Of a stretch of DNA of 33,843 nucleotides, positions 13,524-30,128 are shown piece after piece. The translations under genes were made by a program, and so were the position numbers. The stretch is from Acidobacteriota bacterium. GTDB taxonomy: Bacteria > Acidobacteriota > UBA6911 > RPQK01 > JAJDTT01. The stretch spans positions 1 to 33,843 of the forward strand of contig JAJDTT010000310.1 of NCBI GenBank assembly GCA_022827025.1, written 5' to 3'. Below the pieces are notes generated by a model. That model did not search any database and was not told the DNA's origin. It saw only the letters and a program-made list of their open reading frames with translations. How positions within the stretch are numbered: the first letter of the stretch is position 1; every line of letters begins with the position of its first letter.

Positions 13524-14062
13524 CGAATTCCCCTGCCGAGGCGGCCATCCTGCTCTCGCTCGGGTCCAACTTGGGCCGCCGGGAAGACTACCTGGCCCGC
13601 GCCTTGAACCGGTTGGACGAACGGGGAGTGGAACCGGTTCTCTGCTCTTCGGTGTACGAGACCGAACCCGTGGGAGTCGTGGACCAGGGCCTTTTTCTGA
13701 ATCTGGTCTGCCAGGTGGAGACCCGCCAGGCCCCCGCATCGCTGCTGGCCACCTGCCTGGACGTCGAGGCTTCGCTGGGCCGTTCACGCAAACATGCCAG
13801 GGAGCCTCGCAACATCGACATCGACATCCTCTTTTTCGGACAGGAGATCGTCCGCCGGCGGGACCTGCAGATCCCTCATCCACGATTCCGGAGCCGGAAG
13901 TTCGTCCTGGTCCCGTGGAACGAGATCCTGCCCTGCTTCAGAGACCCGATTTCGGGGCGAAGTCCGGCCGAATTGCTGCGAGTCTGCCCGGACCGGACGC
14001 GAGTCGCACGATATTGCGCGGCGACGCGTCACCCGGAGCCTGCCTTCTGGAAGATCGGATAA
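13520..14062 (+). CDS. folK: 6-hydroxymethyl-dihydropterin pyrophosphokinase (HPPK)
   Basis: The enzyme transfers pyrophosphate from ATP to 6-hydroxymethyl-7,8-dihydropterin in folate synthesis. Family motifs are clear: LLSLGSNLGRRE at the N-terminus, SSVYETEPVG, FLNLVCQVET, then EPRNIDIDILFF and IPHPRFRSRKFVL. The first standard start (TTG 13571) falls after the LSLGSN motif and would remove the first strand. No ATG, GTG or TTG occurs in frame for at least 80 bp upstream of that motif. The best candidate is CTG at 13520, whose last two bases belong to the lptD TGA, giving a 180-residue protein translated by coupling. A one-base sequence error is the alternative. The gene ends with TAA at 14060. 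Confidence 0.85.
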   Translation: MTNSPAEAAILLSLGSNLGRREDYLARALNRLDERGVEPVLCSSVYETEPVGVVDQGLFLNLVCQVETRQAPASLLATCLDVEASLGRSRKHAREPRNIDIDILFFGQEIVRRRDLQIPHPRFRSRKFVLVPWNEILPCFRDPISGRSPAELLRVCPDRTRVARYCAATRHPEPAFWKIG

Positions 14063-14122
14063 GGCTGCCATGAGGGCGCCGGAGCCGGTGCGATGCCGTG
14101 CGGCCATCACCATCGGCTGGTT

Positions 14123-14282
14123 CCAGCCCGTGGCGAAAGTCTCGCGAGCACCGAGACCGGGGCTGCGCCCGCCGGACAAGGCGCTCTGAGGGAGCATACC
14201 GGGAGTATGTGACCGAGGAGCAACGCAGTCCGCCGGGATGCAGACCCGGTCGAATGCCGTGACGACTTTTGCCACGGGCTGG
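14123..14282. repeat. MITE-like long imperfect inverted repeat
   Basis: The outer 19 bp are inverted copies with one mismatch (14123-14141, CCAGCCCGTGGCGAAAGTC, and 14264-14282). The arms keep matching inward through ACCGGG.CTGC and the CCG.CGGAC region, and meet at a CATAC/GTATG stem (14195-14199 and 14205-14209) around a 5-base loop. The two ends are symmetric about 14202. There is no coding capacity. This is the form of a miniature inverted-repeat element or large REP-type hairpin. Confidence 0.75.
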
Positions 14283-14288
14283 TATACT
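14259..14288 (+). promoter_or_regulatory. Candidate lepB promoter at the edge of the inverted repeat
   Basis: An extended -10, TGGTATACT, has its hexamer TATACT at 14283-14288, immediately outside the inverted repeat. An 18-bp spacer separates it from GTGACG (14259-14264), a weak -35 that lies inside the element. It would drive lepB and probably dacB. Confidence 0.45.
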
Positions 14289-14401
14289 CGGCGGCGTTTT
14301 TCGGGACTTGCCGAGAGTTCGTTTTCCGGCCGCATGACCGTGGTCGAATTCGGGGAGTGCCTCGGCATACCTGGTCGTGATCCGTTTGGGGCCGAGGCAG
14401 G

Positions 14402-15130
14402 ATGACTCAGACCGAACCTCAGGAAACGCCCGCCAGCCAGGAGAGCACCCTGCGGGAGTACTTCGTCACCACCGTCGTCTGCACCATCTTCGCGCTCTTC
14501 GTCACGACGTTCGTAGTTCATCCGATGACGGTCCCCACGCCCTCCATGGAACCGACGATCCTGGTGGGTGACCGGCTACTGATCGACAAGTTCAGTTTTC
14601 GCAACGGTTACTACCCGGGTATTCCGCTGGCCCCCGAGCGCGAGATCAGGCGGGGAGACATCGTCGTCTTCAAATTTCCCAACAATCCCGACACTCTCTA
14701 CGTGAAACGCGCCATCGGGCTGCCCGGCGAGGAGTTGGAGATTCGAGGGGGATCGGTCTACATCAACGGATCAGCGTTGGACGAGCCCTACAAGGTGCAT
14801 CGAGATTCGGCCCTCGACGATGGCCGGAACTATCCGCGCGATCCCCATCGGGGCAACCGCCGGAACAATCCGACGCCCATCAAGATTCCGGACGGCAACT
14901 ATTTCGTCATGGGGGACAACCGTGACGACAGCGCCGACAGCCGCTACTTTGGATTTCTGCCCCGAAGCCATATCGTGGGCCGGCCTCTGGTGGTCTTCTG
15001 GTCTTACGAGGACGCGTCGGATGCGTATCTGAAGAGTTCGATCCCCGAGATGCTCGGCCTGTACCTGGAGAGGATCGTCTTTTTCGTGACCCGGACCCGA
15101 TGGAGCCGGATGGGGCACGTGGTCAGTTGA
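14402..15130 (+). CDS. lepB: Signal peptidase I
   Basis: This 242-residue membrane protease starts at ATG 14402 with GAGG a few bases upstream. One membrane segment (about residues 20-40) anchors it. The catalytic Ser48 is in PTPSMEPT (45-52) and the general-base Lys102 is in the YVKRAIGLPGE box. The GDNRDDSADSRYFG motif of box E is complete. It removes signal peptides from exported proteins at the periplasmic face, including presumably LptD and the propeller proteins in this window. The C-terminus ends in a hydrophobic stretch (LGLYLERIVFFV) and a basic tail. dacB follows 38 bp downstream on the same strand. Confidence 0.95.
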   Translation: MTQTEPQETPASQESTLREYFVTTVVCTIFALFVTTFVVHPMTVPTPSMEPTILVGDRLLIDKFSFRNGYYPGIPLAPEREIRRGDIVVFKFPNNPDTLYVKRAIGLPGEELEIRGGSVYINGSALDEPYKVHRDSALDDGRNYPRDPHRGNRRNNPTPIKIPDGNYFVMGDNRDDSADSRYFGFLPRSHIVGRPLVVFWSYEDASDAYLKSSIPEMLGLYLERIVFFVTRTRWSRMGHVVS

Positions 15131-15168
15131 ACCGGAGGTCGCCGGGAGGCCAGGAGGACGCACCGGGG

Positions 15169-16791
15169 ATGATCAGAACGCTGCTGGCCTTTTGTTCGCG
15201 AACCGGGGCCTTTCCCGCCAGTTGGCGAAACCGGCTCTCCCACGCGGGAGTCCTGGGAATATTGGCGGCGATCTCCGTCGGTCTCGTCCTCTGGCTGCGG
15301 ACCGACTCGACACCGGCGCTATCCTCCCCGGCGGTGCCCGCTGCAGTCGAAGCGGATGCCGGCCCACCTTCCCAGCCGGCGACCGCTGACAAAACCCGCC
15401 GGCCCGACCCCGGCTTGGCACGGAAAATCGACGCTCTACTGGACAGCAAACGGTACCGCCGGGCCTCGTGGGGAGTCGATGTGCGCTACGTCGACGGGGG
15501 AGCCGTACTCTATTCCCGGAATCCCCTGAAATACTTCGTTCCGGCCAGCAACATGAAGGTGTTCACGACGGCGGCAGTCCTGAACCATCTGGGACCCGAC
15601 TTCCGATTCGAAACCCGCCTCGGCTACGAGGGACAACTCCAGGAGAACGGGGTTCTGACCGGAGACCTGGTCCTGATCGGGGGAGGAGATCCCGGCTTGG
15701 CCAACAATCCGGGTTCCGGCTCCATTTTCAAGCACCTGGACAACATGGTCCGGGAGGTGGAACGGGCCGGCATCCGCCTGATCCAAGGGGACGTGATCGG
15801 CGACGACTCGTTCTTCTCCTATGCGCCCCACGGACGCGGATGGAACAAGAAGGACCTGGAGTACCACTACGCCCCCCGAGTCTCCGCCCTCTCCTTCCAT
15901 GACAACCTCCTGAATTTGGTGGCCCGTCCCGGCAGACGGACCGGACAGCCCATCCGTCTTGCCAGCTACCCCTCCAACTCCCTTTTCCAACTGGTCAACA
16001 TGGGCACCACCGTCGCGGATGGTCCGCAAGCCACCGGATACTTCTTCCGGTCCCTGGGAAACCACAAGGCGGTCATCGGGGGCCAGATCCCCGTCAACAG
16101 TCCGGGCTGGACCCGCCGGATCACGATGGAGGATCCCGCCCTGTACACGGCGACACTCTTGAGGGACCGTCTTCGCAAGCGGGGCATTCGGGTCTCAGGC
16201 TCGGTCCGCTCCCGTCACACCGCGCCGGCAGACGGCGTGGAAACGCAGGTCATTTACGTCCACGAGTCCCCGCCTCTGATCCAGTTCATCTTTCGGGTCA
16301 ACAAGGAGAGTCACAATCTCTACGCCGAGATCCTGCTCCGAACCCTGGGCGCCGTCGTCAAAGGCCGAGGCAGCGATTCGGGCGGATTGGAAGTGGTTTA
16401 CGAGCTGCTTCGGGAAGCGGGGGTGCCGTTGCGCCTCACCGATATTCAGGACGGGTCCGGGCTCTCGGAGCAGAACCTGATCACCCCCCGGGCGCAGTCG
16501 ATGTTACTTCAGCACGTGGCGGGAAAGTCCTTCTTCCCCTTCTTCCTGGGCAGCTTGCCCATTGCCGGCAGGACCGGCACCCTCAGCGGGCGGATGGGGG
16601 GAACGCCCGCAGCCAACCGCGTCTTCGCCAAGACCGGGACGCTGTCCAACGCCATCACCCTGGGCGGATACGTCCAATCCCGATCCTCGGAACTGCTGGC
16701 CTTTTCCATCCTGGTCAACGATCACCGCTTCGGCCACTACACCGCCCGCCGCGGCATCGACGAGATCTGCAGCCTTTTGGCCAGGCAGTAG
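15169..16791 (+). CDS. dacB: D-Ala-D-Ala carboxypeptidase/endopeptidase, PBP4 type (S13)
   Basis: This 540-residue protein starts at ATG 15169, with AGGAGG about 11 bases upstream; a frame extension back into lepB is disregarded. A membrane segment spans about residues 26-44 (VLGILAAISVGLVLWL), followed by a Pro/Ala-rich linker to about 80. The three penicillin-binding motifs are present: SNMK (Ser127-Lys130), SHN (381-383) and KTG (488-490). It trims and cleaves peptidoglycan cross-links in the periplasm. The membrane segment looks like an uncleaved anchor rather than a signal peptide, a minor difference from soluble PBP4. It probably shares a transcript with lepB. Confidence 0.93.
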   Translation: MIRTLLAFCSRTGAFPASWRNRLSHAGVLGILAAISVGLVLWLRTDSTPALSSPAVPAAVEADAGPPSQPATADKTRRPDPGLARKIDALLDSKRYRRASWGVDVRYVDGGAVLYSRNPLKYFVPASNMKVFTTAAVLNHLGPDFRFETRLGYEGQLQENGVLTGDLVLIGGGDPGLANNPGSGSIFKHLDNMVREVERAGIRLIQGDVIGDDSFFSYAPHGRGWNKKDLEYHYAPRVSALSFHDNLLNLVARPGRRTGQPIRLASYPSNSLFQLVNMGTTVADGPQATGYFFRSLGNHKAVIGGQIPVNSPGWTRRITMEDPALYTATLLRDRLRKRGIRVSGSVRSRHTAPADGVETQVIYVHESPPLIQFIFRVNKESHNLYAEILLRTLGAVVKGRGSDSGGLEVVYELLREAGVPLRLTDIQDGSGLSEQNLITPRAQSMLLQHVAGKSFFPFFLGSLPIAGRTGTLSGRMGGTPAANRVFAKTGTLSNAITLGGYVQSRSSELLAFSILVNDHRFGHYTARRGIDEICSLLARQ

Positions 16792-30039: not shown

Positions 30040-30128
30040 TGGTGCCGGAGGCGGGATTCGAACCCGCACACTCGTTTCGAGCGCCACCCCCTCAAGATGG
30101 TGTGTCTGCCAAGTTCCACCACTCCGGC
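30040..30128 (-). tRNA. tRNA-Leu (anticodon GAG)
   Basis: This is an 89-nt class II tRNA on the minus strand. The acceptor GCCGGAG pairs with CTCCGGC, followed by discriminator A and an encoded CCA. The anticodon stem CCATC/GGTGG holds the loop TTGAGGG, giving anticodon GAG. A long variable arm, CGCTCG-AAA-CGAGTG, confirms the Leu/Ser class, and the T arm is GCGGG-TTCGAAT-CCCGC. It begins only 6 bp after the secG stop, so it is probably cut out of the secG transcript. Confidence 0.95.

Follow-up and report, generated by a model that had tools for sequence, protein, structure and literature searches.

The inverted repeat between folK and lepB in the window (the whole stretch of Acidobacteriota DNA analyzed here, 33,843 nucleotides of contig JAJDTT010000310.1) is a copy of a MITE. 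This assignment is strongly supported by the many copies of the element, by the ends that it shares with an intact insertion sequence (IS), by 4-bp target duplications, and by empty sites. The family is new and ordinary in kind. The 158-nt copy occupies a GTAT target that falls within the -10 region between folK and lepB, and two relatives from the same genus lack it. Judging from the sequence, it is somewhat probable that the MITE was inserted by an IS of the DUF772/DDE type and that its right arm acts as a promoter half that keeps the -10 box usable, such insertions being tolerated or favored.

Structure and genomic context of the element

The first-pass annotation had described an inverted repeat of 160 bp. 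The repeat is real, but family alignment reduces the element proper to 158 nt (Table 1), which is the length of 48 of the 95 near-full-length copies; the outermost C/G pair of the 160-bp repeat is part of the 4-bp target-site flanks. In a repeat search, the 19-nt arms at 14123-14141 and 14264-14282 are 95% complementary, in agreement with the single mismatch noted earlier for the outer 19 bp, and the central CATAC/GTATG stem is present as described (14195-14199 and 14205-14209). The predicted RNA fold of the 191 nt from 14110 to 14300 has an energy of -119.8 kcal/mol (z -8.4), and that of the opposite strand has a z of -5.7; none of 200 shuffles was as good in either case.

The element lies 61 nt 3' of the folK stop and 120 nt 5' of the lepB start. 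The gene downstream of lepB, previously called PBP4, encodes an S13 carboxypeptidase according to Pfam, which we take to be of the PBP4 type. The only Rfam matches in the window at gathering score are two tRNA genes, at 2506-2578 and 30043-30128, both on the minus strand.

Table 1. Coordinates of the element, its promoter-like signals, and the neighboring genes in the window
Feature	Position	Strand	Basis or remark
folK (HPPK)	13529..14062	+	Pfam HPPK; start not settled, stop 14060-14062
Left target-site copy GTTC, apparently decayed	14120..14123	.	Compared with GTAT of the G003 empty site
MITE copy, 158 nt, CAG...CTG	14124..14281	+	Family alignment, profile search; site is empty in G003 and G001
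Left terminal inverted repeat CAGCCCGTGGCGAAAGTC	14124..14141	+	One mismatch to the IS end CAGCCCGTGGCAAAAGTC
Central stem-loop CATAC/GTATG	14195..14209	.	
-35-like hexamer GTGACG inside the right arm	14259..14264	+	Same place in 59/89 right ends
Right terminal inverted repeat, minus strand reads CAGCCCGTGGCAAAAGTC	14264..14281	-	Identical to the IS ends
TG of the putative extended -10, final dinucleotide of the element	14280..14281	+	TG also there in both empty sites
Right target-site copy GTAT	14282..14285	.	G003 empty site also has GTAT; G001 has TTAT
-10-like box TATACT, beyond the right tip; predates the insertion	14283..14288	+	
lepB, signal peptidase I	14402..15130	+	Peptidase_S26
S13 D-Ala-D-Ala carboxypeptidase	15100..16791	+	Pfam; start not settled

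Copies, targets, and distribution of the MITE family

The repeat had earlier been called MITE-like, with a search for other copies as the proposed check; many genomic copies and 4-bp target duplications bear this out. In the window's own genome (5.33 Mb in 318 contigs), at least 41 matches to the MITE are found (40 of 112 candidates were scored), along with 136 matches to its terminal inverted repeat versus 3 for a reversed control. Among the 60 genomes searched, the MITE occurs in all four members of the genus, including the window's own, and in none of the 56 genomes outside it. When one mismatch at most is allowed, the terminal inverted repeat alone is present in 8 of the 149 genomes from the phylum, including G000 and G003. 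A right-end pattern is counted 125 times in G001, 63 times in G002, and 28 times in G003, with 0 for the control. One exact 21-mer from the right end is present in 63 stretches, all of them from CATOST (uncultured Acidobacteriota) or JAPOYZ records except one Hydrogenedentes contig. The JAPOYZ records (G002) are labeled "Candidatus Aminicenantes," yet their genus is that of the window's genome and of CATOST. The Hydrogenedentes contig carries a 157-nt element (L101:1940-2096) with the same 18-bp ends, the flanks CTAG and CTAA, and a different interior.

A first set of 132 distinct copies was collected, of which 95 are near full length and 93 are usable for analysis of flanks. Identical 4-bp flanks are found in 46 of these 93, compared with 4.9 for shuffled partners, and none of the 93 shows flank agreement over 5 bp or more. 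In a second set of 100 further copies, the 4-bp flanks are identical in 40 of 65 (4.8 expected). The target flanks favor NTAN at both ends. An aligned counterpart without the element is available for 17 copies and shows a 4-bp overlap in 14 of them, with junctions extrapolated from BLAST ends, some alignments poor, and two of the copies (L036 and L306) representing one shared insertion. Predicted genes cover 0.80 of the sequence in the first set, and any overlap with a predicted gene is limited to 80 nt in 81 of 85 copies of the first set and 98 of 100 of the second. The family thus displays the marks of a MITE: it is short and noncoding with many dispersed copies, it has terminal inverted repeats in common with an autonomous element, and it shows target-site duplication and empty sites.

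In six copies from the window's genome (L015:2004, L034, L036, L038, L039, and L043; 169 to 170 nt), the central loop is swapped for another hairpin, GTAGGGGCGACCCTTGTGGTCGCCC. In the right flanks of L017:2161 and L036, the target copy is immediately followed by the short left end of a second MITE, which looks like the insertion of one element at another's edge. The copies at L015:2004-2173 in the window's genome and L290:1559 in G002 seemingly occupy the same site in opposite orientations, reflecting either an inversion or two insertions; L052 has no MITE at this site. At L051:1702-4017, another insertion interrupts a MITE copy; it has a long open reading frame (ORF) that by eye resembles a different transposase. 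A composite element around genes was considered for L066 and discarded, as the ORFs between the two ends do not, by eye, encode a transposase. An IS110-family element of G001 has four long copies (at least 836 matched bases; L179, L183, L187, and L190), all located inside MITE copies at the same place in the central loop, equivalent to about 14194/14195 of the window at the loop edge. Three of these have MITE sequence on both sides, and L190 is cut by a contig end. REP palindromes have been reported as targets of IS110-type IS (PMC1525189).

The probable partner insertion sequence

The 18-bp ends of the MITE are the same as those of a 1,478-bp IS in G001, flanked by TTAG on both sides, and the similarity between the two elements is limited to these ends. 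The IS product, of about 450 amino acids, combines DUF772 and a DDE domain. In Pfam, DUF772 scores 62.7 (gathering cutoff, 23.1) and DDE_Tnp_1_6 scores 26.8 (cutoff, 25.1), with DDE_Tnp_1 at 20.4, below its cutoff of 23. In NCBIfam, the transposase falls below the cutoffs of both the IS1182 family (NF033551, 170.5 bits versus 270) and the IS5 family (IS5_4, 79.8 bits versus 140; others lower), and the IS is therefore filed in neither. The 4-bp NTAN target presumably resembles that of the IS5 group. Six IS copies bounded by two ends were seen, three of them with identical 4-bp flanks; four IS copies contain an uninterrupted full-length transposase gene, and intact copies exist in G001. In the window's genome, the transposase is represented by fragments only (10 matches, the longest 170 amino acids), while G002 has no match and G003 has one weak match. 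The common ends suggest that the MITE was moved in trans by this IS.

Empty and filled sites upstream of lepB

G003 and G001 have folK and lepB next to each other with no element between them; the search of G002 gave no lepB orthologue, only a distant lepB paralogue. The window reads CATCGGCTG-GTTC-element-GTATACTCGG, and the corresponding empty-site junctions are CATCGGCTG-GTATACTCGG in G003 and CGTCGGCTG-TTATACTCGG in G001. Only 2 of 4 bases are shared by the left and right target copies of the window, and the duplication is most simply read as GTAT with a left copy that has decayed. By parsimony, the insertion of the MITE and the accompanying 4-bp target duplication would postdate the split from the G003 and G001 lineages.

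The first-pass annotation had placed the lepB promoter across the right end of the element, with a -35 inside it and its tip completing an extended -10 at 14283, and had proposed comparing the folK-lepB gap in relatives lacking the element. The -35, the tip TG, and the TATACT box are where it put them, and the two relatives do lack the element, but their gaps already read GGCTG-GTATACT (G003) and GGCTG-TTATACT (G001); hence the -10 box and the TG are older than the insertion. The resulting promoter-like site, GTGACG-18 nt-TATACT with TG before the box, has 9 of 12 matches to the Escherichia coli consensus; the region from 13950 to 14420 contains one such site, versus a shuffle mean of 0.1. At spacers of 16 to 18 nt, the best -35 match to TTGACA is 4/6 with the element (GTGACG, 18 nt) versus 2/6 in both empty sites. 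The insertion thus appears to have exchanged the upstream half of the lepB promoter-like site, retaining the ancestral TGGTATACT and gaining a better -35 match; the effect on lepB expression that the annotation had envisaged is a candidate only.

The tip of the element itself ends in GGCTG, like the sequence before the empty-site -10. A preference for CTG before the target was considered as the cause of this match and rejected: CTG precedes the target copy in just 3 of 93 cases, so the match looks like a coincidence.

Promoter-like junctions across the family

At the -35 position, right ends of the family read GTGACG in 59 of 89 cases, GCGACG in 13, and other variants in the remainder, and the equivalent position of left ends reads CGCGGG (37), CGCGAG (24), and the like. 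In a preliminary look without gene context, -10 matches of at least 5/6 were seen at 4 of 93 right ends and 2 of 93 left ends. For the family test, a -10-like box was defined as at least 4/6 matches to TATAAT at flank positions 2 to 7, and an end was taken to face a gene start located within 300 nt. The statistics are limited by their reliance on a simple ORF caller for the starts, on the E. coli consensus, and on a single genus. This test was chosen after the first set had been looked at, and the second set was drawn from three of the four genomes of that genus.

In the first set, -10-like boxes are found at 11 of 35 right ends facing a start, 5 of 54 other right ends, 4 of 42 left ends facing a start, and 7 of 47 other left ends (pooled, 11/35 versus 16/143). 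The 100 new loci of the second set give 15/50, 3/46, 2/32, and 1/33, respectively, i.e., 15/50 versus 6/111 (Fisher test, P = 5e-5). Copies with similar flanks were merged because relatives share insertions, which brought 232 copies down to 205 clusters. Boxes then occur at 26 of 84 right ends facing a start versus 27 of 254 other ends (P = 2.6e-5); taken separately, left ends facing a start have 8/79 (P = 9e-4) and right ends not facing one have 11/99 (P = 8e-4). Clusters of new copies only show 11/40 versus 4/92 (P = 3e-4). Of 13 offsets, only the register adjoining the element has an excess of -10-like boxes. GTGACG is intact in 24 of the 32 junctions with such a box; the figure for the other right ends is 81 of 151 (P = 0.02). 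Of the 26 genes that follow a right end with a box, ten were sent to Pfam, and nine of the ten have domains. The remaining 58 of the 84 right ends facing a start lack a -10-like box.

Two further empty sites, L324 (TTATACT; for the L061 copy) and L333 (TTATAAT; for L331 and L332), have the -10 although the element is absent; the -35 matches at 4/6 positions in the filled sites versus 2/6 or less in the empty ones. Together with lepB, these are the three loci at which empty sites were read by eye. In L331 and L332, at least the left half of the element is missing, but the right tip with GTGACG is retained.

These comparisons suggest that the element carries, in its right arm, a mimic of the upstream half of a sigma-70-type promoter, with GTGACG 18 nt before the box and TG at the tip. 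A right end landing against a -10 box would displace the old upstream half and leave a usable promoter, so that such insertions might be tolerated or favored. The geometry proposed for lepB seems in this way to gain statistical support at the family level, as a half-promoter standing in for the half that it splits.

Alternative explanations

The element might also be a plain MITE with no role in transcription, whose NTAN target happened to lie in a -10 box, the promoter-like arrangement being a leftover of a TA-containing target. This is possible, although we regard it as doubtful. It accords with the NTAN preference at both ends and with the -10 and TG at lepB that predate the element. No orientation preference relative to genes is seen, 44 right and 44 left ends of 81 facing starts in the first set, which also fits. 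However, target preference alone predicts equal rates at left and right ends, and boxes occur at 8/79 left versus 26/84 right ends facing a start (P = 9e-4); the 11/99 at right ends not facing a start (P = 8e-4) also speaks against it. In the merged set, 84 of 183 right and 79 of 155 left ends face starts. This lack of an excess of right ends facing starts counts against the half-promoter reading, since a mere loss of insertions in the wrong direction is hard to reconcile with it; a dependence of insertion on orientation, or subsequent changes in the flanks, may play a part.

Readings based on RNA fare less well. It is unlikely that the block GGCTGKTATACTCGGCGGCGTTTTT after folK is a terminator or another RNA signal, with the MITE simply lying beside it: both empty sites conserve the block, and two terminator-like sites are present (14278-14292 and 14298-14317; shuffle mean, 0.4), but the first stem has 5 pairs, 3 of them G-C, and junctions of this kind are also found upstream of other genes, nine of the ten checked having Pfam domains. 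Very improbable, in turn, is a functional structured RNA (a riboswitch-like leader or a small RNA) kept by selection in the lepB region. The fold is strong, 13 of 42 consensus pairs are changed on both sides in at least one copy, and in 68 of 86 copies the plus strand exceeds the minus strand in G-U-type pairs. Yet the consensus strand difference is only 7 versus 5 and the copies are related; strand-specific selection on the hairpin is accordingly not claimed. The element has no Rfam match at gathering score, a relaxed search of 13950-14500 gave four chance-level matches (best E value, 1.5), copies are dispersed over many loci with target duplications, and the orthologous site in two relatives lacks the element.

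Comparison with known elements and implications

The Correia elements (CREE/NEMIS) of Neisseria, of about 105 to 155 bp, have terminal inverted repeats, target duplication, and stem-loop transcripts; these and several other bacterial MITEs carry sigma-70-like promoters, and the Correia ones can drive the next gene (PMC10969869, PMC2229807). The new family is like them in size class, terminal inverted repeats, and target duplication, and its promoter role is putative. The new MITE differs in its sequence and ends, its 4-bp NTAN target, and its G+C richness, and it holds only an upstream half-promoter, with the -10 in the flank. RUP of Streptococcus pneumoniae, of about 107 bp with more than 100 intergenic copies, is likewise believed to owe its mobility to an IS whose ends match its own (PMC2229807); that partner is IS630-Spn1, with TA targets, in contrast to the DUF772/DDE IS and 4-bp duplications found here. 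Archaeal MITEs have been described whose similarity to IS is limited to ends of less than about 20 nt (PMC3852290), much like the 18 nt in common here, although hosts and IS families differ.

It has long been known that IS ends form hybrid promoters, in which the -35 points outward from the element and the -10 is supplied by the flanking DNA. The present element differs in that it is noncoding, its target duplication shares bases with the -10, and, at the three loci compared, the -10 was there before the element. A narrow literature search found no description of a MITE whose target duplication overlaps a -10 while its end supplies the -35, no paper dealing with MITEs together with Acidobacteriota and sponges, and none dealing with insertion sequences and transposases in Acidobacteriota that are sponge symbionts; absence in print is not thereby shown.

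MITEs are often treated as passive debris. It is quite possible, if short of probable, that this one is a "promoter-healing" transposon, whose target overlaps the -10 and whose right end reproduces the -35/TG half, so that in one orientation it could enter promoters, even those of important genes like lepB, without silencing them and over time re-wire part of the promoters of the genus. The family offers natural pairs of filled and empty sites in an uncultured bacterial genus, together with the prediction that one end is able to replace the upstream half of the promoter that it splits. If true, this would help to explain how an element can spread into promoter regions without killing its host, and it would provide a set of natural promoter swaps.
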